Notes under the pieces: generated by a model | Told to the model about the DNA's origin: nothing | Databases searched by the model: none | What the model saw: the letters and a program-made list of their open reading frames with translations, nothing else | Position numbers and translations under genes: made by a program | DNA from: Polytrichum commune | Taxonomy: Eukaryota > Streptophyta > Polytrichopsida > Polytrichales > Polytrichaceae | Reading direction: 5' to 3' | Length of the DNA: 64,000 bases | Assembly: GCA_950295325.1 (NCBI GenBank) | Contig: OX485806.1 | Span: 52,447,169 to 52,511,168, forward strand | Part shown: piece by piece, positions 3,106-49,560 of the stretch | How positions within the stretch are numbered: position 1 is the first letter of the stretch | Layout of the letters: the number at the start of each line of letters is the position of its first letter

Positions 3106-6100
3106 GCTCTACAAACATATAGGGACCTTCTCGGTTCCGATAGGGTACATAGGTTGAGGGTGTGAACCATATTTCTGCTTGTGTACATAGCCTTGTTGGA
3201 GGGCTTTAATCATTTTTTTGATTGTGTTGAAATCTTCTAGTTAAGGGGCTGGACAATATAAGGACCCTCTCGGGTCTGAGAGGGTCGAGGGGTTGGGGGC
3301 ATGAACCCGATTTTTGCTTGTCTAAATAGCGAAGTTGGAGGGCTTTAATTTGTTTTTTGGTTGGCTTCATAATCTTCAAGTTCAATGGTTGAACCTATAG
3401 GGACCCTCCTGGTTCTGAGAGGGTACATGGGTTGGGGTATACACCAAATTCTTGTTTGTCTAGATATGCCAACTTGAAGGGCTTTAATCATTTTTTTGAT
3501 TGGGTTGAAATCTTCTAGTTAAGGGGTTGGACACTGTACGGACCCTCTCGGTTCCGAGAGGATCGAGCGGTTGGGGGCATGAACCCGATTTTTGCTTGTC
3601 TAAATAGCCCAGTTGGAGAGCTTTAATCGATTTTTTGGTTGGCTTTATATTCCTCAAGTTCAATGGTTGAACATATAGGGACCCTCCTGATTCCGAGAGG
3701 GTATTGGGGTTGGGGTATACACCAAGTTTTTGGTTGTCTAGATATGCCCAATTGAAGGGCTTTAATCATTTTTTTTTGTTGGGTTGAAATGTTCAAGTTA
3801 AAGGGTTGGACAATGTAGGGACCCTCTCGGTTTCGAGAGGGTCCAGGTGTTGGGGGCATGAACCTAATTTTCGCTTGTCTAAATAGCCGAGTTGGAGGGC
3901 TTTAATCTATTTTTTGGTTGGCTTTATATTTTCCAAGTCCAATGGTTGAACATATAGGGACCCTCCTGGTTCCGAGAGGGTACAGGGGTTGGGGTATACA
4001 CCAAATTTTTGCTTGTCCAAATATGCCCAGCTGAAGGGCTTTAATCATGTTTTTGATTGGGTTGAAATTTTCAAGTGAAGGGGTTGGGACGCTCTCGGTT
4101 CCGAGAGGGTCGAGGGGTTGGGGGCATGAAGCCGATTTTGGCTTGTGTACATAGCCCTAATGGAGGGCTTTAATATATTTTTTGGTTGGCTTTATATTCT
4201 TTAAGTCCAATGGTTGAACATATAGAGACCCTTCTGGTTCCGAGAGGGTACAGGGGTTGGGGTATAAACCACATTTTTTCTTGTCTAGATATGCCCAGTT
4301 GAAGAGCTTTAATCATTTTTTTGGTTGGGTTGAAATGTTCTAGTTAAGGGGTTGGATAATATAGGGACCCTCTTGGGTCCGAGAGGGTCAAGGGGTTGGG
4401 GGCATGAACCACATTTTCGCTTGTCTAAATAGCCAAGTTGCAGGGCTTTAATTTATTTTTTGGTTGGCTTTATATTCTTCTAGTTATATGGTTGAACACA
4501 TAGGGACCCTCTCTGTTCCGAGAGGGTCTAGGGGTTGGGGGTATGAACCAAATTTCTGTTTGTGTAGATAGCCTAGTTGGAGGGCTTTGCTCATTTTTTT
4601 GGTTGGGTTGAAATCTTCTAGTTAAGGGGTTGGACAATGTAAGGACCCTCTCGGTTTTGAGAGGGTCCAGGGGTTGGGGGTATGAACCAGGCTTTTGCTT
4701 GTGTAGATAGGCCCTAATGCAGGGCTTTAATATTTTTTTTGGTTGGCTTCATATTGTTCGAGTTCGATGGTTGAACATATAGGGACCATCTCGGTTCCGA
4801 GAGGGTCCAAGGGTTGGGGATATGAAGAAATTTATGCTTTTGTAGATAGTGAGTTGGAGGGCTTTACTCATTTTTTTGGTTGGGTTTAAATCTTCTAGTT
4901 AAGGGGTTGGATAATGTAGGGATCCTCTTGGTTCCAAGAGGGTGAGGGGTTGGGGGCATGAACCCGATTTTGGTTTGTCTAAATAGCCAAGTTGGAGGGC
5001 TTTAATCTATTTGCTGGTTGGCTTTATATTCTTCAAGTTCAATATATTTGGTTGAACATATAGGGACCCCTGGGTGCGAGAGGGTACAGGGGTTGGGGTA
5101 TACACCAAATTTTTGAGTGTCTAGATATCCCCAGTTGAAAAGCTTAAATTATTTTTTTGGTTGGGTTGAAATTTTCTACTTAAGGGGTTGGACAATATAG
5201 GTACCCTTTCGGTTCCGAGAGGGTCAAGGGGTGGGGGGCGTGACTTTGATTTTCGGTAGTTTAAATGGCCAAGTTATAGGGCTTGAATGTTTTTTTGCTT
5301 GGCTTTATATTGTTCAAGTTCAATGGTTGAACATATAGGGACCCTCTCGGTTCTGAGAGGGTACATGGGTTGGGGGTGTGAACCGGAATTCTGCTTGTGT
5401 AGATAGCCTTGTTGAAGGGCTTTACTCATTTTTTTGATTGTGTTGAAATGTTCTAGTTAAGGGGCTGGACAATGTAAGGACCCTCTCGGTTCCGAGAGGG
5501 TCGAGGGGTTGGGGGCATGAACTTGATTTTGGCTTGTCTAAATAGCCAAGTTGGAGGGCTTTAATCTATTTGTTGGTTGGCTTTATATTCTTCAAGTTCA
5601 ATGGTTGAACATATAGGGACCCTCCTTGTTCCGAGAGGGTACATGGGTTGGGGGTGTATACCAGATTTCTGCTTGTGTAGATAGCCATGTTGGAAGGCTC
5701 TACTCATTTTTTTGATTGTGTTGAAATCTTCTAGTAAAGGGGTTGGACAATGTAGGGACCCTCTCGGTTCCGAGAGGGTCGAGGGGTTGGGGCATGAACC
5801 CGATTTTGGCTTGTTTAAATAGCCAAGTTGGAGGTATTTAATCTAGATTTTTGGTTGGCTTTATAATCTTCAAGTGCAATGGTTGAACATATAGGGACCT
5901 TCTTTATTCCGAGAAGGTACATGGGTTAGGGGTGTGAACCTGATTTCTGCTTATGTAGCCTTGTTGGAGGGCTTTATTCATTTTTTTGATTGTGTTGAAA
6001 TCTTCTACTAAAGGGGTTGGACAATGTTCGGACCCTCTCGGTTCCGAGAGGGTCAAGGGGTTGGGGGCATGAAACCGGTTTTGGCTTGTCTTAATAGCCA

Positions 6101-6892
6101 AGTGGGAGGGCTTTAATCTAATTTTTGGTTGGCTTTATATTCTTCAAGTTCAATGGTTGAACATATAGGGACCCTCTTTGTTCCGAGAGGGTACATGGGT
6201 TGGGTGTGTGAACCAAATATCGGCTTGTGTAGGTAACCTTGTTGGAGGGTTTTACTCATTTTTTTGATTGTGTTGAAATCTTTTAGTAAAGGGTTTGGAC
6301 AATTTAGGGAGCCTCTTGGTTCCGAGAGGGTCGAGGGGTTGGGGCATGAACCCGATTTTGGCTTGTCTAAATAGCCGAGTTGGAGGTATTTAATCGAGAT
6401 TTTTGGTTGGCTTTATATTCTTCAAGTTCAATGGTTGAACATATAGGGACCCTCTCTGTTCCGAGAGGGTACATGGGTTGGGGGTGTGAACTAGATTTCT
6501 GCTGATGTAGCCTTGTAGGAGGGCTTCATTCATTTTTTTGATTGTGTTGAAATCTTCTATTAAAGGGGTCGGAGAATGTTGGGACCCTCTCGGTTCCGAG
6601 AGGGTCACGGGGTTGGGGGCAAGAAACCGATTTTGGCTTGTTTTAATAGCCAAGTTGGAGGGCTTTAATCTAACATCTGGTTGGCTTTATATTCTTCAAG
6701 TTCAATGGTTGAACATATAGGGACCCTCTCTGTTCCGAGAGGGTACATGGTTTGGGGGTGTGAACCAGATTTCTGATTGTGTAGATAGCCTTGTTGGAGG
6801 GTTTTACTCGTTTTTTTGATTGTGTTGAAATCTTCTAGTTAAGGGGTTAGACAATGTAGGGACCTTCTCGGTCCTGACAGGGTCGAGGGGTT
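3106..6892. repeat. satellite S1, left part (~140-bp units)
   Basis: Tandem units of about 134-140 bp. Two variants alternate: one with GGTTGGACAATGTAGGGACC and one with GGTTGAACATATAGGGACC, giving a ~280-bp higher-order unit. Each unit has an inverted repeat, CCCTCTCGGTTCCGAGAGGG in the best copies, extended in many to 11-bp arms beginning GACCC around a TT spacer. The rest of the unit is T-rich (TTTTTTGGTTGG). Open frames across the array are translations of the repeat. Unit divergence indicates an old array. Confidence 0.95.
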
Positions 6893-7226
6893 GGCTCAAG
6901 GGGGGTAGTCATTGGTTGGACTAGGAATATACGTTCAAACAAATGATAGGGTATTTTAAAAACATGAGGGCTAAAAATTATAAATGGACTTAAGAGTAAT
7001 ATAGGGTATCAATAATGGCACTGAACATCTTTAAAGTACTAGAGGGTATGGAATAATAGGTAATTTGGAATTATAAGTAATGCAAGCCATTTTTTTATTA
7101 ATTCAAAGTAGAAATTTACATAATGATAACATGTGGATAAAAAAAGAATTGAAAGTAATACCCCTCTATAAAATAGTGGTTGTTCGCACCTATATCCTTA
7201 ACTTTTTAACACACTGCCCCCCCCCG
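6893..7226. mobile_element. MITE-like insertion inside S1
   Basis: About 335 bp of AT-rich sequence unrelated to S1 breaks the array in mid-unit. Its ends are imperfect inverted repeats: GGGGGGTAGT near the left edge, and ACTG followed by a run of C at the right edge (~7218-7230). There is no open frame. Small size, AT-richness and G-rich inverted ends fit a non-autonomous DNA transposon, but I could not define a clean target duplication because the flanks are G-rich. Confidence 0.45.
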
Positions 7227-10200
7227 AGGGGGTTGGGGGCATGAACCCGATTTTGGCTTGTCTAAATAGCCAAGTTGGAGGGCTTTAATCTAATTTTTGG
7301 TTTGATTTATATTCTTCGAGTTTAATGGTTAGACATATTAGGACCGTCCTGGTTCCGAGACGGTACAGGCGTTGGGGTATACACCAAGTTTTTCGTTGTC
7401 TAGATATGCCCAGTTTAAGGGCTTTAATTTTTTTTTTGTTGGGGTGAAATCTTTTAGTTAAGGGGTTGGACAATGTAAAGACCGTCTCGGTTTTGAGAGG
7501 GTCCAGGGGTTGGGGTTATGAACCTGGTTTTTGCTTGTGTAGATAGGCTCTAATGAAGGGCGTTAATCTTTATTTTGGTTGGCTTCATATTCTTCAAGTT
7601 CAATGGTTGAACATATAGGGACCCTCTCGGTTCCGAGAGGGTCTAGGGGTTGGGGGTATGAACAAATTTGTGCTTGTGTAGATAACAAAATGGGAGGGCT
7701 TATTCATTTTTTTGGTTGGGATTAAACCTTCTAGTTAAGGGTTTGGACAACGTAGGGACCTTCTCGGTTCCGAAGGGGTCCAGGGGTTGGAGGCATGAAC
7801 TGATTTTCGCTTGTCTAAATAGCCAAGTTGGAGGGCTTTAATCTATTTGTTGGTTGGCTTTATATTCTTCAAGTTCAATGGTTGAACATATAGGGACCCT
7901 CTGTGTTCCAAGACGGTACATGGGTTGGGGCTGTGAACCTGATTTCTGCTTATGTAGCCTTGTTGGAGGGCTCCATTCATTTTTTTGATTGTGTTGAAAT
8001 CTTCTAGTAAAGGGGTTGGACAATGTTGGGGCCTTCTTGGTTCCAAGAGGGTCCAGGGGGTGGGGGTCATGAACCCGATTTTGGCTTGTCTAAATAGCCA
8101 AATTGGAGGTCCTTAATCTAGATTTTTGGTTGGTTTTATACTCTTCAAGGTCAATGGTTGACAATATAGGGACCCTCTCTGTTCCGAGAGGGTACATGGG
8201 TTGGGGGTGTGAACCTGATTTCTGCTTATGTAGCCTTGTTGGAGGGCTCTACTCATTTTTTTGATTGTGTTGAAATCTTCAAGTAAAGGCGTTGAACAAT
8301 GTTGGGACCCTCTCAGTTCCGAGAGGGTCAAGGGGTTGGGGGCATGAACCCGATTTTGGTTTGTTTTAATATCCAAGTTGGAGGGTTTTAATCTCTTTGT
8401 TGGTTGGCTTTATATTCTTCAAGTTCAATGGTTGAACATATAGGAACCATCTCGATTCCGAGAGTGAACAGGGGTTGGGGGTATGAACTTGAATTCTGCA
8501 TGTGTAGATAGCCTAGATGGAGGGCTTTAATCATTTTTTTGGTTGGGTTGAAATCTTGTAGTTAAGGGGTTGGACAACACAGGGGTCAAGGGATTGGGGC
8601 ATGAACTCAATTTCCGCTTGATCAAATAGTCCAGTTGGAGGGCTTTAATTTAATTTTTGGTTGGCTTTATATTCTTCAAGTTCAATGATTGAACATATAG
8701 GGATCCCCAGGTTCAGAGAGGGTACAGGGGTTGGGGTATACACCAAATTTTTGGTTGTCTAGATATGCCCAATTGAAGGGCTTTAATCAAAAAAATTTGT
8801 TGGGTTGAAATGTTCAAGTTAAAAGGTTGTACAATGTAGGGACCCTCTCAATTTCGAGAGGGTCGAGGGGTTGGAGGCATGAACCTAACTTTCGTTTGTC
8901 TAAATAGCCCAGTTTGAGGGGTTTAATCTATTTGTTGGTTGGCTTTATATTATTCAAGTTCAATGATTGAACATATAGGGACCCCCACGTTCTGAGAGGG
9001 TACAGGGGTGGGGGTATACACCAAATTTTTGGTTGTCTAGATATGCCCAATTGAAGGGCTTCAATCAATTTTTTTGGTTGGGTTTAAATCTTCTAGTTTA
9101 GGGTTTGGACAACGTAGGGACTCTCTCGGTTCCGCTAGGGTCTAGGGGTTGAGGGCATGAACCTGATTTTCGCTTGTCTAAATAGCCCAGTTGGAGGGCT
9201 TTAATCTTTTTGTTGGTTGGCTTTATATTCTCCAAGTTCAATGGTTGAACATATAGGGACCCCCAGGTTTTGAGAGGGTACAGGGGCAGGGGTATACACC
9301 AAATTTTTGGTTGTCTGGATATGCCCAATTGAAGGGCTTTAATCAATTTTTTTGGTTGGGTTGAAATGTTCTAGTTAAAGGGTTGGACAATGTAGGGACC
9401 CTCTTGGTTTCGAGAGGGTCGAGGGGTTGGAGGCATGAACCTGATTTTCGCTTGTCTTAATAGCCCAGTTCGAGGGCTTTAATCTATTTGTTGGTTGGCT
9501 TTATATTCTTCAAGTTCAATGGTTGAACATATGGGGACCATCTCGGTTGCGAGAGGGAACAGGGGTTGGGGGCATGAACCGGATTTTTACTTGTGTCGAT
9601 AGCCCATTTGGAGGACTTTAATATGTTTTTTACTTGGCTTTATATTCTTCAAGTTCAATGGTTGAACATATAGGGACCTTCTCGGTTCCGAGAGGGTATA
9701 TGGGTTGGGGGTGTGAACCATATTTTTGCTTGTGTAGATAGCCAAGATGGAGGGCTTTAATCATTTTTTTGGTTGGGTTTAAATCTTCTAGTTAAGGGTT
9801 TGGACAACGTAGGGACCCTCTCGGTTCCGGGAGGGTCCAGGGGTTGGGGGCATGAACCAGATTTTTACTTGTGTCGATAGCCCATTTGGAGGACTTTAAT
9901 CTATTTTTTGGTTGGCTTTATATTCTTCAAGTTCAATGGTTGAACATATAGGGACCCCTCGGTTCCGAGAGGGTACATGGGTTAGGGGTGTGAACCATAT
10001 TTCAACTTGTGTAGGTAGCCGTGATGGAGGGCTTAAATTTTTTTGGTTGGGTGGAAATGTTCTAGGTAAGGGGTTGGACAATGTAAGGACCCTCTCTGTT
10101 CTAAGAGGGTCAAGGGGTTGGGGGCATGAACTTGTTTTTCGCTGGTTTAAATAGCCAAATTAGAGGGTTTTAATTTTTTTTGGGTTGGTTTTTTATTCTA

Positions 10201-11045
10201 CAAGTTCAATGGTTGAACATATAAGGACCCTCTTGGTTCCGAGAGTGTCTAGGGGTCGGGGGTATGCACCAAATTTTTGCTTGTGTAGATAGCCCTGTTG
10301 GAGGGTTTTACTCATTTTTTTGGTTGGGTTTAAACTTGTAGTTGAGGGGTTGGATAATGTAGGGACCCTCTCGGTTCTGAGAGGGTCGAGGGGTTGGGGG
10401 CATGAACCCGATTTTGGCTTGTCTATATAGCCAAGTTGGAGGGCTTGAATCTATTTGTTGGTTGGCTTTATATTCTTCAAGTTCAATGACTCAACATATA
10501 GGGACCCTCTCGGTTCCGAGAGGGTACAGGGGTTGGGGTATACACCAAATTTTGGGTTGTCGAGATATGCCTAGTTGGAGGGCTTTAATCATTTTTTTCG
10601 TTGGGTTGAAATCTTCCAGTTAAGGGGTTGGACAATGTAGGGACCCTCTTGGTTCCAAGAGGGTCCAGGGGTTGGGGTATGAACCAGATTTTTGCTTGTG
10701 TAGATAACTCTGTTTGAGGGTTTTTATCATTTTTTTGGTTGGGTTGAAATCTTCTAGTTAAGGGGTTTGACAATGTAACGGACCTTCTCGGTTCCGAGAG
10801 GGTCGAGGGGTTGGGGTATACACCACATATGTGTTTGTCTATATAGGTTGGGGTTCACGGGTTGAATGTTTTATGGGTGGGATGATATATATCAAAGTTA
10901 AGGGGTTGGACAATGTAGGAACCCTCTCGGTTTTGAGTAGGTCCAGGGGTTTGGGTACGCACCCAATTTTTGCTTGTGTGGATAGGCCCTGTTGGAGGCC
11001 TTTTATCTGTTTTTTGGTTGGGTTCTATTCTTCAAATTAAGGGGT
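7227..11045. repeat. satellite S1, middle part
   Basis: Continuation of the same ~140-bp tandem family with the palindrome CTCTCGG-TT-CCGAGAG in most units. Many palindromes have single changes that break the symmetry. The array runs up to about 80 bp before the first recognisable exon of gene copy 1, so the upstream exons of that gene, including the ParB-like one, are absent here. Confidence 0.95.
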
Positions 11046-11124
11046 TGGACATGGAGGGTCTTCATTGAGGACATTGGGACGAAATTGTGACCATATTTTG
11101 GACTTTATGTTTGGTTCATCTTAG

Positions 11125-13574
11125 TTGGAAAAAAATGTTGAGGGTGAGATCAGCTTATTTGAAAATGAATGCTCCATCGACATCGACTGGGCTTCTACAA
11201 AAGGTCTTTTGCAACCTACTCATTTTGTCAAGCATTCGAGGCTCATTTTGTGGGACAAGGTTTTTGGGTGTATTTTGACGACAAGGGAGACTTGAAGTTC
11301 ACCAAAGGGCTCGATCTCATAGAGTTCGAGAAAGGCCCCATAGCTATCAAGCGTGTTGCTTACCGGTAATCATTTTTGTTTTTATTTTGTCCTTCATATC
11401 TTTGTTTGCTTTCACTTATTCCAGTCCATTTCTTTGTTCTCATGTTCTTCAATCTCTAGGTACATTCACCGTGAGTTTGTCGTGAAGAATGTTCTTCCTT
11501 CTTCATCTTTGTTGTCATTCCTTGAAGATTGGATCGATGACAATTCAAAGTTTTGTATGTACACGCCCATGCAACTTGCAAAATTTCCACGCATGCATTT
11601 AGTGGCTGGTGGTTGGTACTTGGATTGTTCTCGTTGATTCGTTACCGACGTAGAAGAACCCCTCTACAACAACCTCGCTTCTTCTGTGCTTGAGGTTATT
11701 GAATTGGAAGAAAAGGCGGAAAAAAATGAGAATCCAACTCCTCCCACCAATGACAAAGAGGTTCCGCCGGTGAAGGTCAAGGGCAAAGGCAAGATGGTTG
11801 CCTCCAGTCAAGTGTCCATCCGTTCTTTCACCTAGGCATATGTTAAGCGTACTCCAGCTCCACCTACCACAGTTGTCGGAAGTCCAACTGCAACTCCTTC
11901 TGCCTCTTTTCCAGACCTTATTCCTGCTCCTTCCCATAGCGGTGTCATCATTCCCTCCGTGCCGCGCAAGAGGAAGGCCGTCGATCGGGATACCTCTGCA
12001 ACTTTTTCGAAGAAGTCGTCTACTCTCTCTTTGATTGAGAACGTCGACATGGTGGAGCTTATAAAGGATCTCATGCGCTCCAAGGTCCCCCTCCGGCTTA
12101 CTACCGCATCCAAGAATTCTTTACTAAGGTTTGTGCGACATTCTCTTGTTTTCCCGTTCATTCCATATTGTTGAACACTTGTTTTTTTTTCTAAATTTTC
12201 TTTGTATTTTGGCTTTGCAGGTTGGAGCAGGCCGTACTCGTCCGAATACCAAGCCTAAGGTTCACACAAGGCTTGATATAATTTTGTAAATTTTCCCGAG
12301 AACCTCCGTGTGCCGAGCATCTCGTCATCATCGTCGGAAGTTCCTTAGTGGAACAAACGTTCTTCCACGTACTTTGAGGTTTTGTTTGCCTTCGTAAGCG
12401 CCAAGTTCCATGACAACGGCATTTTTGTCTTTGCACACGCCGCTGATCCGGAAGTGTCTAGATCAATTTACATTTGGGCACATACAAAGGATTTTTACGT
12501 TGCCGAAGATTGGTTTGGCATGAATGACCTCGATCTACAATCGCCTACTATTCCTTCTGAGTTGGTAATTGTTTTCTAGCCTCATCGTTTATTATTCTTA
12601 TATTTTTTTCCATTATATTTTTGTATTCCTAATTCTCCCGTTCATATTTCTTGCAGACTCGCAAATTCTTTATCAAGGTGCTCGTGCATAATGAATCTGT
12701 TTTGAATGTCCGTACCTCGGACTTCGAAGACATGGGTTACAATCTCAAGAGATATGGTTTGCTTAACAGCTTTGCCGATGCGAAGAACCAGTCTATAAAG
12801 GAAGACGGGGTGCCTTGGAGAGGTGCTCGTGAAAAGCGCCCCAAGTTCTTCTCCATCATTTTCTCCATCCTCATGGACAAGGACGACATTATCATGGATT
12901 GGCAATGTGGTGTTGGTTGGTTTTTCATCTTGTTGTATTTTATGTCTTTGTTTTTTTATGTTTTGATTTTTTTATGTTTGTTCCATTTCCCATTCATTTC
13001 CTTATGCTCATCTTCTCGCATTTTGTTGTTTTAGGAGGTTCCGTCATTGCATGCCACTCCATTCAACGCCATATTGTGGCGCTTGAGTCGGACATCGACA
13101 TATTTAAGTCCATCCTCCTCCCCATGCGTGAGCCTGAGCAAGAACACACTTCTCAGCATGGTGCCCCACAACGAGGGTCGGTTTTTGCTCCTTCTCCCCG
13201 GAAGATGGCAAAACGCAATTTTGATTTACTATGTGCGTAAGTTTGTTATTGGCTTCTAACTTGATTGCTTGCATTTTTCTATCTTCTCGGATCGGAATTT
13301 TTGGCTTGTGCTCATTTTTCTTATTTTCTTTTCCTTTATGTGCAAAGTTCTAAATGAGAATCCGATTCGTGTCCTTAATGTGGACATGTTTGCAACCCCT
13401 TCGATGGCGTTCAAACTCCCTTCGTATGTTGCTAACCTTGCCCATCTTTTGGGGGATGCACCTTTCCCTCCTCCTAGTCCCACCCGTTTTTTCAATAATC
13501 TAGTATTGGATTTCCTTGACATAGAGGCTGAGAAGGGCGAGGATAGTGATAGACATTGTAGTCCAAGTTGTTGA
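11125..13574 (+). pseudogene. ParB/methylase-like family gene, copy 1 (5'-truncated)
   Basis: A multi-exon relative of the minus-strand gene at 21297-25472. Exons can be followed by homology: from 11125 (after acceptor CATCTTAG) to about 11367; from the acceptor near 11460 to ~12128; from ~12222 to 12565; from 12657 to ~12912; from 13035 to ~13238; and a last one ending near 13574. The 12222-12912 exons carry a GNxPWRGAREK-like block (PWRGAREKRP). Across the 13035 splice junction lies an SAM-binding-like motif I (DIIMDWQCGVGGS) followed by RHIVALE, the order seen in beta-class N4/N6 DNA methyltransferases; the catalytic DPPY-type motif is degenerate. Damage: one base missing near 11262 (DKVF block), a frameshift or stop near 12288 and a TAG at 12346-12348. 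The N-terminal exons are missing. Methylase kinship is inferred from motifs. Confidence 0.6.
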
Positions 13575-13734
13575 CACCGCCGCGTGCGTTTGGGACCTCC
13601 ATCTCATATGTATTGTTTTTGTTTGAGTTTTTTTATTACTTCATTTGCTAACTTTCCATGTACGTTTTGCAAATTCCATTCAACACCTTCTTTATCTTAT
13701 GTTGTTGTTTGATTTCAATTGTCTAAAGAGATTT

Positions 13735-14410
13735 GGGTGGAAGGATTGAATCTTTGTTGGTTGGGTTGATATTTCTCAAGTTAAGGGGCTGGATAATGTA
13801 GGGACCCTCTCCGTTCCGAGAGGGTTTAGGGGTTCGGGGCATGCACGAGATTTTTGGTTTTCTAGGGAGGTTCGGGTGGACGGGTTGAATATTTGTTGGT
13901 TGGGTTGATATTTCTCAAGTTAAGGGGTTGGACAATGTGGGGACCCTCTCGGTTTTGAGAGGGTCCAGGGTTCGGGTATGCACTAGATTTTTGCTTCTCT
14001 AGATAGGTTAAGGTCGACGGGTTCAATGCTTGTTGGGTGGGTTGATATATCTCAAGTTAAGGGGTTGGACAATGTAGGGACCCTCTCGGTTCCGAGAGGG
14101 TCCAGGGGTTGGGGGTATGCACTAGATTTTAGCTTGTCTATTTGGTTGCGTTTGACGTGTTGAATGCTTGTTGGGTGGGTTGACAAATCTCAAGTTAAGG
14201 GGTTGGACAATGTAGGGATCCTCTCGGTTCCGAGAGGGTCCAGGGGTTGGGGTATGCACCAGATTTTTGCTTCTCTAAATAGGTTGGGGTCGACAGGTTC
14301 AATGCTTGTTGGGTGGATTCATATATCTCAAGTTAAGGGGTTGGACAATGTAAGGACCCTCTTGGTTCCGAGAGGGTCCAGGGGTTGGGGGTATGCACTA
14401 GATTTTTGCA
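13735..14410. repeat. satellite S1, right part
   Basis: Five S1 units with a regular 137-138 bp spacing (TTAAGGGGTTGGACAATGT at ~13920, 14057, 14195, 14333). They carry the same CCCTCTCGG-TT-CCGAGAGGG palindrome. Unlike the left part they do not alternate between two variants and are closer to one another, so this end has been homogenised more recently. 13575-13735 is the AT-rich 3' flank of the gene. Confidence 0.93.
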
Positions 14411-14475
14411 TGTGGCATTATAGCCTTAATGATAAATATTGCATCCCCGTTCATAATATGGTGTACTAGCTAGGA

Positions 14476-15450: not shown

Positions 15451-15455
15451 TAGGA

Positions 15456-18898: not shown

Positions 18899-19309
18899 AG
18901 ACACACCTGAATTCAAGAATGGAGCCTTCCTCAAATGTGGCCAAGAGATGCCCAAACAAAACTTGCATTTGCTATATATCATTTGGGATTGGAAGACGGC
19001 CAATGTGAATGGGGTGCACATGGAGGCAAACATTATGGGTATGATATGTGATTGGATTCCACCAAATTAATGGGGTGAACCTTAACTTGAATGGGGGTTG
19101 GAATCAATATCATAACTCCAACTAAACACCAATGTGAAAGGGATCCACGTGGATATGAAATTCAATGGTATATTAGTAGTTCCGAATGCACAAGATTGAA
19201 GGGGTGAATCTTAACTTGAGTGGGGGATGGAATCAATAACATAATGACCATAATGGCACATGCATTATCTGGTGCCAACCCAAACCCCCTACCCCTAACC
19301 CCTCAACTA
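18899..19309. other. spacer with a diverged tandem duplication
   Basis: Two diverged copies of a ~45-bp block (GGGGTGAAYCTTAACTTGA.. to ..GGAATCAATA) start at 19072 and 19201. A fragment of the same motif occurs inverted at 15466. No gene is seen. The segment separates satellites S2 and S3. Confidence 0.5.
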
Positions 19310-21125
19310 GAGAAATAGCAATCCAACTAGCAAGACACAATCAGGTCCACAACTAACACCATCCACATTAATTCAAAATGTGCTCCTAGACAACTAGTTA
19401 CTTACCCTCAGGGAGCTGAGAACCCACCCAAACATAAAATCAACCATCCACAGTAATACAAAATCTGGTCCCCTTCAACTAAGACCTTACCCTCTCGGAG
19501 CCGAGAGACTACCCAAACATAAAATGAAAGCATTTACATTAATCCAAAATCTGGTCCTAGACACCTAAGACCTTACCCTCTCGGAGCCGAGAGCCCAACC
19601 AAACATAAAATCAACCATCCACACTAATACAAAATCTGGTCCTAGACACCTAAGACCTTACCCTCTCGGAGCCGAGAGCCCAACCAAACATAAAATCAAC
19701 CATCCACACTGATACAAAATCTGGTCCTAGACACACAAGACCTTACCCTCTCGGAGCCGAGAGCCTAACCAAACATAAAATCAACCATCCACACTGATAC
19801 AAAATCTGGTCCTAGACACACAAGACCTTACCCTCTCGGAGCCGAGAGCCTAACCAAACATAAAATCAACCATCCACACTGATACAAAATCTGGTCCTAG
19901 ACACACAAGACCTTACCCTCTCGGAGCCGAGAGCCTAACCAAACATAAAATCAACCATCCACACTGATACAAAATCTGGTCCTAGACACACAAGACCTTA
20001 CCCTCTCGGAGCCGAGAGCCTAACCAAACATAAAATCAACCATCCACACTGATACAAAATCTGGTCCTAGACACACAAGACCTTACCCTCTCGGAGCCGA
20101 TAGCCTAACCAAACATAAAATGAACCATCCACATTAATTCAAAATTTGGTCCCCCTATAACTAAGGCCTTACCATCTCGGAGCTGTGAGCCTAACCAAAC
20201 ATAATATCAACCATCCACACTAATACAAAATCTGGTCCCCTTCAACTAGGACCTTACACTATCAGAGCCGAGAGCCTAACCAAACATAATATCAACCATC
20301 CACACTAATACAAAATCTGATCCCCTTCAACTAGGACCTTACACTATCAGAGCCGAGAGCGTAACCAAACATAAAATCAACCATCCCCATTAATCCAAAA
20401 TCTGGTCCAAGACAACACATACCTTACCCTCTCGGAGCCGAGAGCCTACATGAAAATCAAATCAACTATCCACATCAATCCAAAAAGAAGTCCTAGACAC
20501 CTAAGGCCTTACCCTCTCAGAGCCGAGAGCCTACCCATTCATAAACTCAAAGCATACACATTAAGTCAAAATCTGGTCCTAGACACACAAGACCTTACCC
20601 TCTCGAAGCCGATAGCCTAACCAAACATAAAATCAACCATCCACACTAATACAAAATCTGATCCTAGACACCTAAGACCTTACCCTCTCGGAGCCGAGAG
20701 CCTAACCAAACATAAAATCAACCATCCACACTAATACAAAATCCGGTCCTAGACACCTAAGACCTTACCCTCTCGGAGCCGATAGGCTACCCAACCATAA
20801 AATCAACCATCCCCATTAATCCAAATTCTGGTCCCCCTATAACTAAGACCTTACCCTCTCGGACCCGAGAGCCTAACCAAACATAACATCAACCATCCAC
20901 AGTAATTCAAAATTTGGTCCTTGATAACACATACCTTACCCTCTCGGAGCCGAGAGCCTACCCAAATATAAAATCAACCATGCACATAAAATCAAAATCT
21001 TGACATCTAAGACCTTACCCTCTCGGAGCCGAGAGTCTACACGAACACAAAAATCTAACATCCACATAAAATCAATATTTGTTCCTTAACAACAAATCCA
21101 TTACCTTAGAGCCAAGAGCCTACAT
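19310..21125. repeat. satellite S3 (85-bp units), 3' side of gene copy 2
   Basis: Tandem 85-bp units, each with TTACCCTCTCGGAGCCGAGA, where CTCTCGG and CCGAGAG form 7-bp arms around AG. About six units between 19620 and 20100 are nearly identical; outer units are more diverged and contain short indels. The unit sequence outside the palindrome (ATAAAATCAACCATCCAC, AAAATCTGGTCC) has no similarity to S1 that I can see. Confidence 0.96.
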
Positions 21126-21296
21126 AAACATAGATTTGACAACTCGAAATAAAGAATTGAAATCAAACACCAACATAAGACGAAGAAGGAGATATATGGG
21201 ATTGCAAAAGGTAAATGAAAATTCATAAAATAAATTTATAAAAAAATTTAACAAAACCAATATATATGAGATGGAGGTTAGAGATGCACGAGGCGT

Positions 21297-24200
21297 AGTC
21301 AACCACTTGGACTACTATGTCTATCACTATCCTGGCCCTGCTCGGCCTTATGTCTAGGAAATCCAATACTAGTTTGTTGTAAGGTCGGATACGAGTAGGA
21401 GGTGGGGACGGTGCTTCCGCCAAAAAATGGGCAAGCTCCGTAGCATATTAAGGGAGCTCGAACGTCGTCAAAGGCGTTGCAAACATATCCGCATTAAGGA
21501 CGCGGATGGGGCTCTCAATTTGAACTCTGGACATAGAGGAAAAAAAGAAAACTATGAGCACATGTCTCTATCTCAAATATTTGAAGATACAAATAAAAAC
21601 AAGGTAGAATAAAATAATCAACTTACTCACAAAGCAAATCGAAATTGCGTTCGCCATCTTTCGAGGAGGAGGAGCAAAAACGGAGCCTCGTTGAGGGGCG
21701 GTAGGTTGAGAGGTCTGTTATTGTTCAGGCTCGCGAATGGGGAGGAGGATGGACTTGATAACATCAATGTCCGATTCAAGCGTCACAATATGGCGTTGAA
21801 TGGAGCGGCATGCTATGATGGAACCTCCTAAACCAACAAAATGCGAAGGGATCAGGATAAGGAAATGAATAGGGAAACGAATACAAATGAAATCAAAAAA
21901 TCAAAAAAGAAAGAAATGAAAAAAACAAGAGAAGAAAAACGAACCAAAGCCACACTGCCAATCCAATGTAATGTCGTCTTTGTCCGTGAGGGCGGAGAAA
22001 ATGATCGAGAAGAATTTGGGCCGCTTTTCACGAGCACCTCTCTAAGGCACCCCGTCGTCCCTCACGAATTGGTTATTCACATTGGTAAAGCTGTTGAGCC
22101 AACCATCTCGTTTGAGATTGTAACCCATGTCCTCGAAGTATGAGGTCCGGACATTCAAAACGGACCGATTACGCACAAGCACCTTGATGAAGAACTTGCG
22201 AGTCTGCACAAATTTTCAACGATAGAATTATGAAAACAGAAATAAAAGAAATAAGCTACGAATGAAAATGGATGAAGGCCGAGAAGAAGTACCAATTCAA
22301 AAGAATTAGTGGGCGATTAGAGATCGAGATCACTCATGCCGAACCAGTCCTCGACAACATAGAATTCCTCCATGTGAGCCCAGTTATGAATTGATCTCGA
22401 AACTTCAGGATCGGTAGCGTGCGCAAAGACGAGGACGCCATCGTCATGAAGGTTGGCATTCGCAAATGCAAACAAAACCTCGAAGTAAGTGGAAGAGCGG
22501 ATGTTCCACTAAGGAACATCCAAGGATGAGGCGTGGAGATGCTCGGGACACGTAGGTTCTCGGGCACATCTGCAAACAAGAGATCAACGCCAGTGTGAAC
22601 CTTAGGCTTGGTGTTTGGTCGAGTACGGCCCGCTCCAACCTGAAAGAAAAAATGCAAAGAAAGTAAAACAACAAAACAAATGTTCAAATACATTGAATGA
22701 AAGAATAAAACAATAAAAATGCACACAAACCTTGGTTAGGAAGTCTTGTATGTGGCGGTAGGCGGGAGGTGGAACCTTGGTCTTCATGAGATCCTCAATG
22801 AACTTCCCCATGTCCACATTCTCAATCAAAGAAAAGCTAGATGACTTCTCGGAGGAAGTTACCAATGTATCAGGTGCAACAGCCTTCTACTTGCGAGGCA
22901 CAGATGGAATGGTTGCACCGCTATGAGAAGGAGCAACAACCGGATTGGGTAGGGCAGCAGAAGGAGTGGCGGTTGGACTTCCAACCACAGTGGTGGCTGG
23001 AGCAACATTGCGTTGAACGGAGGCCTTGGCGTAAGAACGTGTGGAAACTTGAGAAAAGACATGGGCGAGAACCTTCTTACCTCTGCCTTTACCTTTGACG
23101 GGCGCAACATCCTTCCCAACGGATGGAGGAGCGGATTTATCTTCATCTGGTTCCTCCTCCAATTCAATGACGTCGGGGCTAGAGCTTGCAAGGCTGCTGT
23201 AAAGGGATTCTTCCTCATCGGGCACGAATCTACGAGAGCAATGCAAATACCAACCACCAGCCTGCAAGTGCAAGGGTGGAAACTTTGTGATTTGCATGGC
23301 CGTATAGACACAAAGATTGGAGTTGACATCGATCCAATCGAAGAGGAAAGTGGGCAAGGACGAAGGAGGCAAAACATTCTTCACAACGAGCTCGCGGTGA
23401 ATGTACCTGGAAAATGAAGAACATGGAGTAAGAAAATGGCCGTGGAAAGGAAAGGGAATGAAAGGAATATGCGAAAAATGAAAACGGAAAAGAATACTGG
23501 TAAGCAACGCGTTTGATTGCAATGGGGCCTTCCTCGAACTCCAAGAGGTCAAGGCCCTTACTAAATATCAAATCGCCCTTGTCGTCAAAATACACCCGAA
23601 AAACCTTGTCCCACAAAATGAGCCTCCAATGCTCAACATAATTGGACGGGTGCAAAATCTCCGTAGAAATCCAATCAATGTCCACAGACAACTCATTCTC
23701 AAACGATGCAATCTCGGCCTCAACCCCCTTCTCCAACTATGTTAAGAGAGACCAACAGTTAGAAATGAAAAAGAATGAAACAAACAAACGAAAAGAAACA
23801 AAACATGAAGATGTACCTGTGCCCAGAAAGAAGTTTTGTTAAGCTAGTCGTCAAGGACTTTCTCACGGAGAGGAAGAGCAGAGGGGAATTTGTTTTCAAT
23901 TTTGATCTTGGCGGGAGAATTCCACCACCGAAGCCACTTGGCTTTGAAGGAGGCATCGACATGGGTGGTTGCTACCTTTTGGAGTTTTTCTATTGTCATA
24001 TCGGGGACGAGGAAGGTGGAAAAATGGCGGTCAATCTGCAACATATGAGAGTGAAAGCAAAGATGAAACAAGAAGGAATGAAAGAGGAAGTTATAAGCCA
24101 ACAAGGAAACAAATGGGAGGCGAACCTCGTAGAAGAAGTCTTCGCCATTATCTTTGTGGGCGATGGAAATGAACTTCTCGAAATTTCGAGACCGAATACT

Positions 24201-25472
24201 CTTGATGAGTTTCTCTTGGGCTTTGGTCATAGTATCCCAAATTTTGGGAGCAGACCTGAGGGACTCTGGTGTATTCTCCCGTTACAACCTTGCTGCAGTG
24301 TCGGCTGCGTTCGACAACTCTCTCTAACATACAAAGAGGAGTGTAAAAGAATGACAATAATCAAGAGGAGAAAGACATAAGCATAAGGAAGGGAAGGAAG
24401 AATTACCTTATACAAGAATTTGACGAAGACGTCCAAGGTAAGAGGATACCAAGTTGGAGTTTTAACCATTTTGGTTTCGCACGTCTTGTAATCTGCGGGA
24501 GAAATAAGGTCCTTGAATTCCTCAAGTTTCATCTTCCCAAATGTTCGAATGCGGAGTAGCTTGGCAGGAATGTTGTCCTTGACATGGTCGTGCTTCGTGG
24601 ACCTACAAGAAATAGCGAGAAACAAAAGGGGAAAAATATTGAGAAAAAAAAACAACAAGAGAAACCCAAACAAAAACAAACTTACCAGTTGATGCCATTC
24701 ATGGCATTAAGGAAGACGACAGCACAGTTTCTCGGGTCGACAACAATGCAGTCCATGGAGATGTGCCAATCTTTGTCCATGGAATGGTGCTTGTTAATGT
24801 GTCGAAACCAAGCCGTCACGCGATGATTTCCCTCCCACACGAAAAACATCTTGCCAACAAAGTGATAGAGGTCGGAATCATTTTCAAGCATGGAATCAAA
24901 CTCATCACTGGCCTCCTTCCATAATGAACTCCAGGAGGCCCGAATGTCGTCCAAAACATGAAGCCCCTCATTAAGGTTGTTGTAGGGAGAGACATACATG
25001 GCACGGTTGCCGTCACGGTAACCCATGACGAATTTGTTTTGCAACCAAGCAACATCGACCTCCCTGATGGGCCGAACAAGAGGAAGACATTGCAAGCGGC
25101 ACAATGGAATAGAGAAATGTGACTTAGCAAGAGGTTTGATTCGAACCCGATGAATCACACCGATAGAGTCTTCTTTTTGCGATCTCCGAATCTCGAGCTC
25201 AATCTCATCCGGATTTGACTCATCAAGAGGACGCACAAGGTCGAATACATGAGGTGAATCATTCTACAAGGGTGGACACAAAATCATGAGGTTAAGCCCA
25301 AAATATGTTGAAAGCCAAAGAACCGGAAGTGCTTGGACACAAAAGGAAAATTTAGCATAGAAAACACCTTTCCACGTTGGACATCAACTAGTGTATGAAC
25401 TTCCACCTCGGCAGGCTCCAATTGAACATTACGGTCATATGTGGATGGCTCCTTGGAGAGAATAAGATCCAT
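21297..25472 (-). pseudogene. ParB/methylase-like family gene, copy 2 (most complete)
   Basis: Exons on the minus strand with GT..AG borders: 25472-25368 (ATG), 25263-24686, 24602-24407, 24323-24126, 24035-23817, 23736-23498, 23406-22731, 22639-22293, then ~22200-21950, ~21838-21720 and ~21423-21297. The 25263-24686 exon has an EGNHRVTAWFRHI block and a later VDPRNCAVVFLNAMNGIN block; together with an upstream LxPLVRPIREVD they resemble the ParB N-terminal fold. The 22639-21720 exons resemble the N4/N6 DNA methyltransferase core, with DLLFADVPE in place of DPPY and GGSIIACRSIQRHIVTLE as the SAM-binding part. In bacteria and phages ParB-like domains are often fused to such methylases. Damage includes nonsense codons in exons 4 and 5, at 22889-22887, at 22511-22509 and 22044-22042 (TGG to TAG in PWRGAREK). 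Expression as a shorter product cannot be excluded. Motif I ends in REPEQ then stop. Confidence 0.6.
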
Positions 25473-25524
25473 AGCTTGTGATTCCTACACAAATTGAAGT
25501 CGAATACAAAAAACAAAAGTTAGA

Positions 25525-34177: not shown

Positions 34178-34267
34178 CTAAACCCTCAAACCATGTATGA
34201 AAACACTTCTACATGAGTGTGAGAACAAAACAATGGCACATATGTGGTAGCAATTTGGAATGACGTA

Positions 34268-34302
34268 GGGTTTAGGGTTTAGGGGTTTAGGATTTAGGGT
34301 TT
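34268..34302 (+). repeat. degenerate interstitial telomere-like block
   Basis: About five TTTAGGG-like units (TAGGGTTTAGGGTTTAGGGG, then ATTTAGGGTTT) lie between the LTR-like element and the 165-bp satellite. TTTAGGG is the common plant telomere repeat, and short internal blocks are frequent in plant genomes. Confidence 0.75.
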
Positions 34303-42700: not shown

Positions 42701-42962
42701 TCATTTACAATGCCTACATGTAGGGCACAATGCCTCCGCAATGTTCAAACAAGACCCTAATATGCGGGGGAACCATCCTACATGTGGAAACATCACAAGC
42801 ACCCCCTACAGGAGGTCTATAACCAAGGTGGGCCAACATTCTATTTCCTCGGTAAGATATGACGAACGGGCAAAACCTACATTTAACCTGCCTTTGTGAT
42901 TTACCGGGAACCATCCCCTTATCCTCGTACCAATGATCCCATGCATCATTTCGGCGTGGCAT
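39774..42962 (-). pseudogene. hAT-type transposase with long acidic C-terminal extension
   Basis: The ATG at 42962 opens a BED-type zinc finger (CRFCPFVISYRGNRMLAHLG..C). A frameshift near 42715 leads into a 554-residue frame with the DUF659/hAT core: CCDGW, CTDNAPVTASAA, GCAAHCLDLLLEDW, and the C-terminal hAT dimerisation block ILAQVCSASACERNWSMYS..HNKSRNRL. An extra base near 41081 shifts the frame again. The remaining ~400 residues begin with SQAEDLVYIY, pass a strongly acidic run (DDDLDEEDDNEDDVD) and continue as S/T/R-rich sequence to 39774. Two frameshifts make this copy inactive, but both are single events in an otherwise open ~1050-codon gene, so it died recently. An acceptor (TTTGCAG, ~42980) just before the ATG suggests a leader intron. 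Confidence 0.75.
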
Positions 42963-43365: not shown

Positions 43366-43508
43366 TAGTAAAATTTTCCCCACTTTACCTTTACTTTGCT
43401 GACATGTCATCACACGTGGACATTGTAAATCCTACGTGTCCGAATTGGGTTAATGTAATTACACAAAAAAATCGGTAAAATTCAAGTCCGTCAGGATAAA
43501 GACAACAT

Positions 43509-44032: not shown

Positions 44033-46989
44033 AACCATGAAGATTACCGCACTAAACAGACAATTAACAATCAAATGCAAAAATATATTTTTATGCAAGC
44101 AATAAGACATATAATCAAAATCACAATTATCAGATAATGCTACAGAGACTTTAGAATCTGTACTATTTGCATCTGAAGAGCCTTCATCCTTAGATTCAAC
44201 AGCTTCTAAATCAACATATTGTATACCGCTTAGCATCAACTCCTTAGGTCTAAATGTACGATATGAACCTTCCGCTAATTCATTGGCAACGTCATTTGCG
44301 TATGAAGGGAGCCGCCATGACTTTGGAGGGCTTGGATAGAACTTAGGGTCACAAAAAAAAAGGCGATGACTAGGGTATCTCAAATTACCGCTTCTGCAAA
44401 TGCAAATGGCAACATGGTCATAAAACCGCCTCATATGAAAGCAAATAAGAAAATATATCACTAGTAGTAGAAATAGTAGCTATACTCACTTACTAAACCT
44501 TGATTTCTTCACGATCTTCTGAACAACAATGATTTCGCTATCTGGATCCTCTAACATGACAACGTTTCTTGATTTCACTTCTATGGCCGAAGCAGATCGA
44601 ATTAGAGGAGCGATCAAGGCTTCAAAAATTGCCTTGTTAGCCTCTAATGCCGCAATGTGACGGTTCACACGCATGAATAGAAACTCCTGCAAAATAAGAA
44701 AACAATGAAGTTCAGTTCTCAAACAACATAAAAATTAATTAACATGAAATGGTCAACGGTTATTTATTTAAACATGAAGAGATGTTCAACGTACCCGTAG
44801 TTGTAGAGCAGTCTAGAACAATATCCCCGGGTGAAGAAGATGCCTGAATGAGCATCTGTATAAGGGCGAGGGATTTTTCGCGAGGACCACGCCAAGGGGT
44901 GGATCCATCCATTAACTGATCCTCCCTTGACACCAAGTTCTGGAGGATGTCATCCCGTGCCACATCAACCCCGTGACGGTCTAGTGCAAGGATGTGTTGA
45001 AAGCAAAATCTGGAAGCACGCACCTTCGGAATGCTCCTCACAACTAAAGTTATTCCAAACCTCATGGTCTGCAGATTACAAAAACAGTTAATTACTTTAC
45101 TTACGAAATAAGATAAAAATCATTAAGCACATTCTAGCAAATGAAATGGAAGATTAGTTTCACAAGATTAATAACATAAGATACAACTATCAATCAATTT
45201 AGCAATAAGTCATATCATAAAATAAACTCACAGTCAAGACTGGATTAATTGGGGATGTCAGGTGAAGCTTGTTCATCCCCCACCACTCTTTGTGAACAAC
45301 AAATCCATACGTGGAACAATACCCAAGAATGATTGACTTTGTAGACATTCGAAAAGGATGGAACAAAATTATCGCCCCATCGTCTTGGAGGTGATGGTCT
45401 GCGAAATCAAAGATTGTTTGAAACCAATCCTCAGGTTCTATGTTCCAGGCGGGAATAGACGAAGGTGGATTCGAAATTCCTGGAACGGGAAGGCCCTCTG
45501 GAAGATCTGTAAGAATCAAGTCCACACAGGGTACTTCCGCAGCAGATCCCTTGTAGCGTCGGCCTTTGTCACTTGAGTGTTGCGCATGAAAATAAATTTA
45601 TCAAAACTCTGACAAGAAAATCAAAGACTGCACACATTCTAACTTGACACCGTTCTGAATTAATGTGAATCAATTACTTGACTTCGAGATCAAATACATG
45701 AGAAGGAGATGTGTATGTAATGAAATCGCATATAACATACAAAAACAGATAGAAGTCAACGACTTAAGCAAGTGCTGAAGTTTTCATACAATGAAAATTA
45801 ACAAAGAAATGTGTTGGATGTCATTGTAATGAGAATGATGACCTATGAATGATTGAAAGAAACTTGAGAACTCATTCATGGGACTCCGCAGCTTGAAAAT
45901 TAGAATTGAATGAAAACATAAACAAAACAAAGTTGTTGAGCAGTATGGTACCTTAGAAATGAAGCTCTTTAACTCGTCATATAATGGACTCAAGCTGCCC
46001 ATGTCGCCACCAAGGACTTGCTCTAGTGAGAAGTTTTTAATCCACTCCCCAACTTGGCCATCATTCTCCTCAACCGATGTGAAAACATGGATTCCTTGGC
46101 TTAACTGCTCATAGGAGAAATCGCGTTTGGTTCCTCTAGACTGAATTGGAGCATGAGAACCAGAGTCATATGTAGGACTAGGCGCAGGTGGGCTCTTACA
46201 TTCTGGCTCTGGAGGGGGGTTCATCTTCTTCTTCCCCCTCTTGTAAGTCTTCTCCAGAAAGTTGTGGAGTTTTGCCATCTCTTTCTGGGCCGCTTTCTCC
46301 TCAGCTTCCTTCACCTTAAGCGCTTTCTTCCTATCTTCTTCTAGACGTCGCGAGAGGGCCTTTGCCCTCTCGTGCTCGTCTTCAATGCCTTGTAAATCAA
46401 CCATCTCAACACTAGACTCTCCAACTGCATCCCTTGACTTCCTAAGTTCAGTTTCAAAGGAGGGAGTGAAACTAGGAGCACAGTCGAGGTACCATCCACC
46501 TCCTGTGAGATGCGAGGTAGACCACGTCCGCTGTTGATTTGCTGAGAACATGCACGTTGAGTTCGACCTGTCAAGCCATGTAGAGAGAAATATTGGGAGA
46601 TCTTCTTTTGTTATTGCTCCTTTTGCAAGGAGCTCGTACTTGAAATACCTGCGGGTTAAAAAAAACCTCATCGTTATATACCTTGCAATCAAAATACATG
46701 TCATGTGAACAACCAAATCAATATGACAAATATAAGAATTCTAGTTGGAGAAGGATAAATCTTACCGAAAGAGTACTCTTCTCAAAATCAAGTCAGTTCT
46801 GTTGAAGCCCTCAAATTCATGAGTTTTGTTAAAAGCATCCTGCCCTCGGAAGAAGGTGGGGAATGCATTGTCCCATAACTTCATTCTACAATCCTCGATG
46901 TATGCAACCAAGGATAAGGGCTTGCTGGGTACTTCAAAGTTGATAACCAGTCTATCTTGACGCACTGTTTCTTCATAGATAATAAAAGC
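44033..46989 (-). pseudogene. ParB/methylase-like family gene, copy 3
   Basis: Exons with good splice borders on the minus strand: 46989-46766, 46648-45952, ~45580-45233, 45067-44797, 44689-~44495 and ~44405-44033. Relations to copies 1 and 2: GGGWYLDC (vs AGGWYLHC), a DLILTDLPEGLPVPG block at the position of the methylase DPPY motif, WWGMNKLHLTSP (vs WFGMNDLDLQSP), DGSTPWRGPREKS, and DIVLDCSTTTG as SAM-binding motif I followed by RHIAALEANKAIFEALI. A K/E-rich coiled coil (~46380-46250) is specific to this copy. Copy 3 is clearly more diverged than 1 and 2 are from each other and has fewer lesions; the join after DCSTTTG needs a small deletion to be explained, so it is probably not intact. 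No ParB-like exon is seen upstream, where satellite S4 begins. Confidence 0.55.
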
Positions 46990-47019
46990 CTAGTTGGATA
47001 TCTGTGGAAAGAAAATATA

Positions 47020-49560
47020 ATAGAAGCTCCCCGAATTCAAATAAGCGCACATATGCACAATTCAGCTGTGGCCTAATCACAACCTGAGTAACATTTAGCC
47101 TAAACTAAATTCAAAATCAAATCTGATTTCAGGCCTAATCACAACCATTCCAATATCTAATCCAAACTCACATGACACTCAGATCAGATTCAGGCCTAAT
47201 CACAACCATAGCAACATCTAACCTTACTTCACTTCACACTCACATCAGATTCATGCCTAATCACAAGCAGCCCAAATTGTAACCTAACTCACTTCATTCT
47301 CAATACAGCCCACTTTAGACCCCCCTCTAGGAAGTCTCTGTACCAAGACACATTGATGAGAATAATGCTGAGTTTCAGAAATCTTATTTCAGGCCTAATC
47401 ACAACCCAAGCAACATATATCCCAAACTCACTTCACACTTAAATCAGATTCAAGCCTTCTCACAACCTTATCAACTTCTAATCTTAACTCACTTCACACT
47501 GTATTCAGATTTCAGGCATAATCACAAGCTAAGCAACATATATCCCAAACTCAGTTCACACTTAGATCAGATTCAAGCCTAATCACAACCATAGCAACAT
47601 CTAACCCAACTGATTTCACACTTAATTCAGCCCACTTAAGACCCTCGTCTAGGGTGTCTCGGGACCGAGACACACTATTTTGAACAAATGTGACTCTCAG
47701 AAATTTGATTTCAGGCCTTATATCTGCCTTACGAACTTCACACTTAACTCAGATTTCAGGCCTAATCACATTATTACCAACATCCAATTCAAACTCACTT
47801 CACACTTAGATAAGATTCAAGCCTAATCACAACCATAGCAACATCTAACCCGACTGATTTCACACTTAATTCAATCCACTTAAGACCCTTGTCTAGGGTG
47901 TCTCGGGACCGAGACACACTATTTTGAACAAATGTGACTCTCAGAAATTTGATTTCAGGCCTACTAAACAACTTACCAACTTTACACTTAAATCAGATTT
48001 CAGGCCTAAGCACAACCTAAGCAACATATAACCCAAACTCACTTCACACTTAAATCAGATTCAAGCCTAATCACAACCATAGCAACATCTAACCCAACTG
48101 ATTTCACACTCACATCAGATTCAGACCTATTCACAACCTTCCCAAATTCTAACCTTCACTCACTTCACACTTAGATCAGATTCAAGCCTAATCACAACCA
48201 TAGCAACATCTAACCCAATTGATTTTACACTTAATTCAACCCACTTAAGACCCTTGTCTAGGGTGTCTCGGGACCGAGACACCCCTTTTTGACCAAACCT
48301 AACTCTCAGAAATTTGATTTCAGGCCTACTAAACACCTTACCAACTTTACACTTAAATCAGATTTAAGGCATAATTACAAGCTAAGCAACATATATCCCA
48401 AACTCAGTTCATACTTAATTCAGATTCAAGCCTAATAACAACCATAGCAACATCTAACATTAACTCACTTCACACTCACATCAGATTCAGGCCTAATCAC
48501 AACTAGCCCAAATTGTAACCTAACTCACTTCACTCTCAATTCAGCCCACTTTAGACGCCCCTCTAGGGTATCTCGGTACCGAGACACATTGATGAGAATA
48601 ATGTTGAGTTTCATAAATCTTATTTCAGGCCTAATCACAACCTAAGCAACATATATGCCAAACTCACTTCACACTTAAATCATATTCAAGCCTACTCACA
48701 ACCTAAGCAACATATAACCCAAACTCACTTCACACTTAATTCAGATTCAAGCCTAATAACATCCATAGCAACATCTAACATTAACTCACTTCACACTCAC
48801 ATCAGATTCAGGCCTAATCACAACCATTATAGCAACATCTAACCTTACCTCACTTCACACTCACATCAGATTCAGGCCTAATCACAACCTAAGCAACGTC
48901 TAACCTTACCTCACTTCACACTCACATCAGATTCAGGCCTAATTACAACCTCCCCAATTTGTAACCTAACTCACTTCACACTCACATCAGATTCAGGCCT
49001 AATCACAACCTAAGCAACGTCTAACCTTACCTCACTTCACACTCACATCAGATTCAGGCTTAATCACAACCTTATCAACTTCTAACCTTACCTCACTTCA
49101 CACTCACATCAGATTCAGGCCTAATCACAACCTAAGCAACGTCTAACCTTACCTCACTTCACACTCACATCAGATTCAGGCCTAATTACAACCTCCCCAA
49201 TTTGTAACCTAACTCACTTCACACTCACATCAGATTCAGGCCTAATCACAACCTAAGCAACGTCTAACCTTACCTCACTTCACACTCACATCAGATTCAG
49301 GCTTAATCACAACCTTATCAACTTCTAACCTTACCTCACTTCACACTCACATCAGATTTCAGGTCTAATCACAACTTTATTGACTTCTAACCTAAACTAA
49401 ATTCACACTCACATCAGATTCAGGTCTAATCACAACCTTACCAAAGTGTACCCTAAACTCACTTCACACTCAATTCAGCCCACTTTAGACCCCCCGAAAG
49501 GGTATCTCGGAACCCTGACACATTTTGTAGAATAATGTTGGCTTTCAAAAATATGATTTG
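47020..49560. repeat. satellite S4 (~61-bp units with palindromic inserts)
   Basis: Tandem units of ~61 bp with CACTCACATCAGATTCAGGC and CTAATCACAACC, most homogeneous at 48840-49350. At intervals a longer unit includes a palindrome: GTGTCTCGGGACCGAGACAC at 47654-47673, 47898-47917 and 48263-48282, TCTCGGTACCGAGA at 48571-48584, and degenerate forms near 47325 and 49500. The array starts right at the 5' end of gene copy 3. Confidence 0.94.

Follow-up and report, generated by a model that had tools for sequence, protein, structure and literature searches.

Palindrome-bearing satellite arrays beside decayed ParB-methyltransferase-like gene copies in the moss Polytrichum commune: a possible gene-plus-site module

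In bacterial parABS systems, and in sopB–sopC of the F plasmid, a ParB-fold protein is encoded beside short palindromic sites, sopC itself being built of tandem units that each contain a dyad. A 64-kb window of the Polytrichum commune genome (the whole stretch analysed; contig OX485806.1 of assembly GCA_950295325.1, positions 52,447,169–52,511,168, numbered here from its first base) resembles these systems in placing a ParB-fold gene beside a cluster of short palindromic sites. It contains three copies (copies 1–3) of a methyltransferase-like gene family, one of them with a ParB-like exon, and satellite arrays (S1, S3, and S4) that carry a common palindromic core, hereafter the box. The moss genes differ from the bacterial ones in being eukaryotic and intron-bearing, in having a methyltransferase-like half in place of a ParA partner, and in the sequence of the site, the binding of which is putative here.

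Accessory proteins with ParB-like and N4C/N6A methyltransferase domains occur in algal transposons (Sola1-1_Ec32 of Ectocarpus), and they have been suggested to bind and modify their own transposon (PMC12477816, in a passage citing Iyer 2011 and Petroll 2025). As described in that passage, these proteins are like the predicted moss family in combining both domains in one eukaryotic gene within transposon-rich DNA. Unlike the moss locus, the passage names no binding site or palindromic array; moreover, the moss copies are broken, two of them are without the ParB exon in the window, and their host element is not delimited. The kind of gene is already known, and the palindromic arrays are what the window may add; a literature search, which mostly left subscription papers outside, found no palindromic array beside ParB-methyltransferase genes. 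Other bacterial-type amino-methyltransferases in eukaryotes, to which the moss genes may be likened, are the permuted PF01555 enzyme N4CMT of bdelloids and the Marchantia N4-methylcytosine methyltransferase of bacterial origin (PMC8885841); in contrast to the moss family, the word ParB is absent from the main text of that paper, and the moss copies have a degenerate catalytic motif.

A common palindrome in arrays adjoining the genes

Exact matches to the pattern used for site counts, TCTCGGNNCCGAGA, number 41 in the window, compared with none in 100 dinucleotide shuffles of it, and 98 sites are found at two or fewer mismatches (1.68 expected). The palindrome common to S1, S3, and S4, first described in an initial annotation of this DNA, is thus borne out as a sound and non-random observation, with the outer arms and spacers as given there. 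S1 has 13 exact sites (between 3546 and 14235; spacer TT), the two S3 arrays at copy 2 have 20 (19493–21034 and 25533–26921; spacer AG, once AC), and S4 has four (47657–48584; spacer GA three times and TA once) spaced by 244, 365, and 305 bp. Four more (56687–56957; spacer AG) lie in a further S3-type array, absent from the initial annotation. Outside the arrays, sites with up to two mismatches occur only at 16349 and 40859, a background level, and at 49505, just past the S4 array. Neither the four tested arrays lacking the box (S2, A34, A55, and A29) nor the 61-bp S4 unit without it showed a dyad beyond chance in mononucleotide shuffles.

The distances from array end to the nearest end of a gene copy are 64, 15, 18, 35, 105, and 9401 bp (18 becoming 89 with the array end given by Tandem Repeats Finder, TRF). 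The satellites had been said to adjoin relatives of the same gene, which is correct for five of the six arrays, all within 105 bp of a copy, but not for the sixth. With the arrays around one gene taken as one cluster, three of the four clusters lie within 110 bp, and only 2 of 50,000 random placements were as good (P = 4e-5), a flattering value for a post hoc test in which the threshold was set after the distances were seen and the window was chosen for the feature. By this test, the array–gene association inside the window is non-random. The 5′ arrays of all three copies end just ahead of a splice-acceptor-like AG (~35 bp ahead of it at copy 2), and those of copies 1 and 3 precede homologous exons; the S1 array stops 64 bp ahead of the first homologous exon of copy 1, and the exon downstream of S4 is the homologue of that exon. 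Likely exons of copy 3 are also found beyond S4 (49.7–50 kb), so that S4 looks intronic, and we infer from these positions that the arrays of this gene family are intronic.

The three satellites had been regarded as unrelated. With the box masked, the flanks are indeed not alike beyond chance between S1 and S3 (p = 0.13, right; 0.91, left), S3 and S4 (0.13 and 0.48), or S1 and S4 (0.95 and 0.68). In gene-sense orientation, however, S1 and S3 have CTCTCGGYTCCGAGAGGGT in common, a stretch that takes in the non-palindromic GGGT; 18 of 19 bases around the box agree, and blastn matches that include the box extend over 50–54 columns (~80% identity; E, 0.002–0.006). Homology between copies 1 and 2, which are arranged tail to tail, runs past the 3′ arrays (15455–15600 with 19228–18955, ~76%). 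A lone S1-like unit without the palindrome, beside the 3′ S3 array of copy 2, matches both ends of the 3′ S1 array of copy 1 (19342–19299, 19333–19297, and 19290–19223 to 13744–13788, 13893–13929, and 14380–14448, respectively; E, 1.4e-4 to 0.006), which suggests that the ancestral state at this place probably included an S1-like unit, S3 having grown later. An S3-like piece is also detected ahead of the copy 1 exon (p = 0.0067, uncorrected among 80 comparisons). Since introns and one flank of copies 1 and 2 still align at ~76%, the satellite sequence appears to have been largely turned over while the box stayed.

Domains and decay of the gene copies

In copy 2, ParB-like and methyltransferase-like domains lie on one strand, interrupted by stops. 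The ParB-like exon matched the ParB/Srx fold in structure comparison, and a search of proteins from public genomes and metagenomes gave 142 relatives (E ≤ 1e-3); no viral relative was confirmed in viral_contigs and no prokaryotic one in genome_contigs. The sequence WEGNHR, invariant or nearly so across 30 sequences and compared as a motif, is presumably similar to the glycine-arginine phosphate-binding motif of that fold. The exons following the ParB-like exon are short and separate. The family had been described as having such an exon; its fold is supported, but copy 2 is the only carrier in the window.

The methyltransferase-like core proposed in the same annotation is supported by two modest lines of profile evidence. 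The copy 3 exon at 44793–45068 matched PF01555 (N6_N4_Mtase) with 21.2 bits (E, 3.2e-4; gathering cut-off, 26.7), and a 222-residue peptide joined by hand from copy 3 pieces in two frames reached 28.3 bits, while the other three pieces scanned alone, among them the exon of copy 1 and the catalytic-side one of copy 3, gave no match. A profile search of the PDB returned three matches up to E 10, all at motif I and all to the methyltransferases DpnA or MboIIA (E, 0.078–0.23); a fold model of the methyltransferase exon (predicted local distance difference test score, 65.9) had no PDB match. The catalytic-like motif comes first and the DIVLD motif later, an order that we take to be that of permuted beta-class enzymes. 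The catalytic motif D/N/S-P-P-Y itself was not found; its likely place reads ILTDLPEG in copy 3 and LLFADVPEN in copy 2, and with DLPE or DVPE there, it is doubtful that the copies would be active methyltransferases.

The family search with the methyltransferase exon gave 146 relatives at E ≤ 1e-3, falling among the 120 listed into copy-1-like and copy-3-like groups, with no viral relative confirmed in viral_contigs. For P0007, a relative of the ParB exon, and P0135, a relative of the methyltransferase exon, the longest contig is 43,482 bp in each case, which suggests that both are on one contig. The palindrome occurred in 30 stretches of viral_contigs, each with a single site, and comparison of the box with the open reading frames (ORFs) of 240 relatives gave a single short-motif match, in P0229, that does not allow interpretation.

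Exon borders were read from three-frame translations, in which three likely exons of copy 2 contain stops, copy 1 has frame changes, and copy 3 has apparent frame changes. When 84 codons from a single exon were compared after removal of one stop codon, copies 1 and 2 differed with a nonsynonymous rate (dN) of 0.105 and a synonymous rate (dS) of 0.549, suggesting that purifying selection was in force for much of the time over which they diverged.

Weighing of the proposed module

Tentatively, and with somewhat less than even confidence, we favor the explanation that a eukaryotic family with a ParB/Srx fold and a permuted beta-class amino-methyltransferase-like half is represented here by three decayed genes, the introns and flanks of which accommodated the growth of arrays, and that gene and arrays form a cis module. 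The genes would belong with the accessory genes reported from algal transposons. The family protein would dimerize on the palindromic box, a putative site that the arrays would multiply, and the bound protein may mark or organize the chromatin of its own element, as does ParB at parS-type arrays. Such a gene-plus-site module is possible and fits the published idea on ParB-methyltransferase accessory proteins of transposons. The persistence of the box through satellite turnover is the best argument for function, although shared descent explains part of it.

Several results weigh against this proposal. When monomers were phased with the core masked (S4, with only five boxed units, was left out), the symmetric core was present in 16 of 57 S1 monomers (16 of 60 in the set spanning the 334-bp gap between the TRF rows, which the smaller set leaves out), 18 of 35 S3 monomers, and 4 of 7 in the gene-less array. 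Pair changes in the core were one-sided in 84 cases in S1 (n = 60) and 28 in S3, compensated in 4 and 2, and unpaired with both bases changed in 13 and 3, respectively. Conservation of the core hardly exceeds that of the rest in S1 (0.836 versus 0.834, n = 60; 0.854 versus 0.842, n = 57) and S3 (0.910 versus 0.901, 35 monomers), and the mean of its non-CpG arm columns was reached by 19 of 112 same-shape windows in S1 and 21 of 58 in S3. A count for which monomers had been selected by their core placed the core higher than the rest in each of four sets, but this selection biases it, and it was superseded. Symmetry, said to be kept, is kept between the satellites but not inside the S1 and S3 arrays, where selection for it is not supported. 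Changed cells in S1 are more frequent at CpG columns (57/240) than at non-CpG columns (47/480), as expected of methylated CpG; the difference is slight in S3 (14/140 versus 22/280). Furthermore, the S3-type array near no gene copy leaves an exclusive array–gene association unsupported, hmmsearch found no ParB-like exon in copies 1 and 3 within the window, and the three copies look like relics, with no working copy here. As the genes are dead, a former function is compatible with decay within the arrays.

The gene-plus-site reading is plausible, and its main rival, which we consider a serious possibility though well short of probable, is common descent without function: the box would derive from one ancestral repeat of this element family and be kept, unbound, by arrays seeding and homogenizing each other. 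The S1/S3 likeness around the box, the lean of the masked right-hand flanks to collinear similarity, the S1-like remnant, the S3-like piece, and the small excess of the core in S1 and S3 are all consistent with this. However, the box survived where S1 and S3 are otherwise not alignable beyond chance, in spite of the alignable introns and flank of the copies, and non-CpG arm columns stand at 0.982 versus 0.829 for the rest in the gene-less array (7 monomers; P = 0.003; 0 of 58 windows), the only one of the three sets tested (S1, S3, and gene-less) with a core clearly better kept than the rest.

It is rather unlikely that the box serves another protein, either a transposase that binds repeats close to the ends of an element or a CENP-B-type chromatin protein of the host. 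Centromeric satellites are known in which a box is partly intact, and the CENP-B box is likewise short and retained by a fraction of monomers that have otherwise diverged; the present arrays differ in lying in or beside one gene family. A transposase-like gene (ORFs at 50731–54905), recognized by motif reading only, stands head-to-head with copy 3, with the gene-less array downstream of it, but no convincing terminal inverted repeats delimit a gene-bearing element or join array, gene, and transposase (exact words of at least 13, best 60 pairs), and five of the six arrays end beside the ParB-methyltransferase-like copies instead. Quite improbable is a structural seed, hairpin-prone DNA promoting tandem duplication wherever it landed in introns: the boxed satellites are tandem arrays, distinct as a set from the four dyad-less ones, but a purely structural role would not require the same 12 letters, and one-sided changes are tolerated.

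A further reading, which we regard as speculative and on balance unlikely, would be a eukaryotic counterpart of ParB–parS, in which a transposon-borne ParB-methyltransferase family carries its own tandem palindromic sites within introns and flanks, the site outlasts satellite turnover as the protein needs it, and the element marks or clusters its own copies. If true, eukaryotes would possess a gene-plus-site module that marks itself and is laid out like a bacterial partition system, and there would be a reason why some satellites carry dyads. With a specific 12-base palindromic core in arrays that adjoin the genes, the published suggestion of self-binding and self-modification would become directly testable by binding and methylation assays.

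Features of the window

Table 1. Arrays, gene copies, and exons in the window
Feature	Coordinates	Strand	Basis
S1 array, ~139-bp monomer, 5′ side of copy 1	3114..11058	+ (gene-sense)	TRF rows 3114–6894 and 7229–11058, palindromes
Gene copy 1, methyltransferase-like half, frame-disrupted	11122..13720	+	75.7% DNA identity to copy 2; translation
Copy 1 exon with motif-I-like DIIMDWQCG	12657..12914	+	hmmsearch, family search
S1 array, 3′ side of copy 1	13735..14409	+	TRF, palindromes
Lone S1-like remnant without palindrome, past the 3′ S3 array of copy 2	19223..19342	-	blastn
S3 array (85 bp), 3′ side of copy 2	19358..21137	-	TRF end 21066; self-alignment extends to 21137
Gene copy 2, ParB-like exon and methyltransferase-like half, in-frame stops in three likely exons	21155..25487	-	self-alignment, translation
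Copy 2 exon with motif-I-like DITLDWQCG, broken by stop	21949..22203	-	translation, hmmsearch
ParB/Srx-fold exon of copy 2	24688..25263	-	structure comparison, family search
S3 array, 5′ side of copy 2	25522..26931	-	TRF, palindromes
Gene copy 3, divergent methyltransferase-like half, apparent frame changes	44250..46965	-	30–38% amino acid identity; translation
S4 array, 61-bp units, upstream of copy 3 exon	47070..49472	-	TRF, palindromes, translation
S3-type array, no gene copy within 9 kb	56366..57093	-	TRF, palindromes

The window is eukaryotic in character, with intron-bearing gene fragments, a hAT transposase, repeats resembling solo long terminal repeats (LTRs), and a short TTTAGGG-type tract, a weak sign in keeping with a green-lineage organism; no Rfam family or ribozyme was found in it at gathering score. 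An array of 94-bp units (TTTGGCCAAGGCCTTAA; 17759–18897) lies between copies 1 and 2 and has no dyad beyond chance. The solo-LTR-like repeats (TGTCGC...GCGACA) at 2129–3100 and 14476–15450 have 5-bp target-site duplications, read by eye as CGGAG and TAGGA; an LTR-flanked element around S1 was ruled out, as these duplications differ and the repeats look like separate solo LTRs. A third such copy at 1–805 is joined to an inverted copy of the 5′ end of the repeat (806–1104). The hAT-type transposase ORF (41077–42744, - strand) has DUF659 and hAT dimerization domains. The transposase-like ORFs at 50731–54905 (+) and their inverted relative at 62510–63999 (-), without a Pfam match where scanned, are by motif reading presumably Mutator-like. 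A 99% identical inverted repeat (27237–27644 and 36912–37319) lies beside a protein-kinase ORF (Pkinase, 28358–27702, - strand), and a short interstitial TAGGGTT tract at 34266–34303 is presumably the plant-type telomere repeat.
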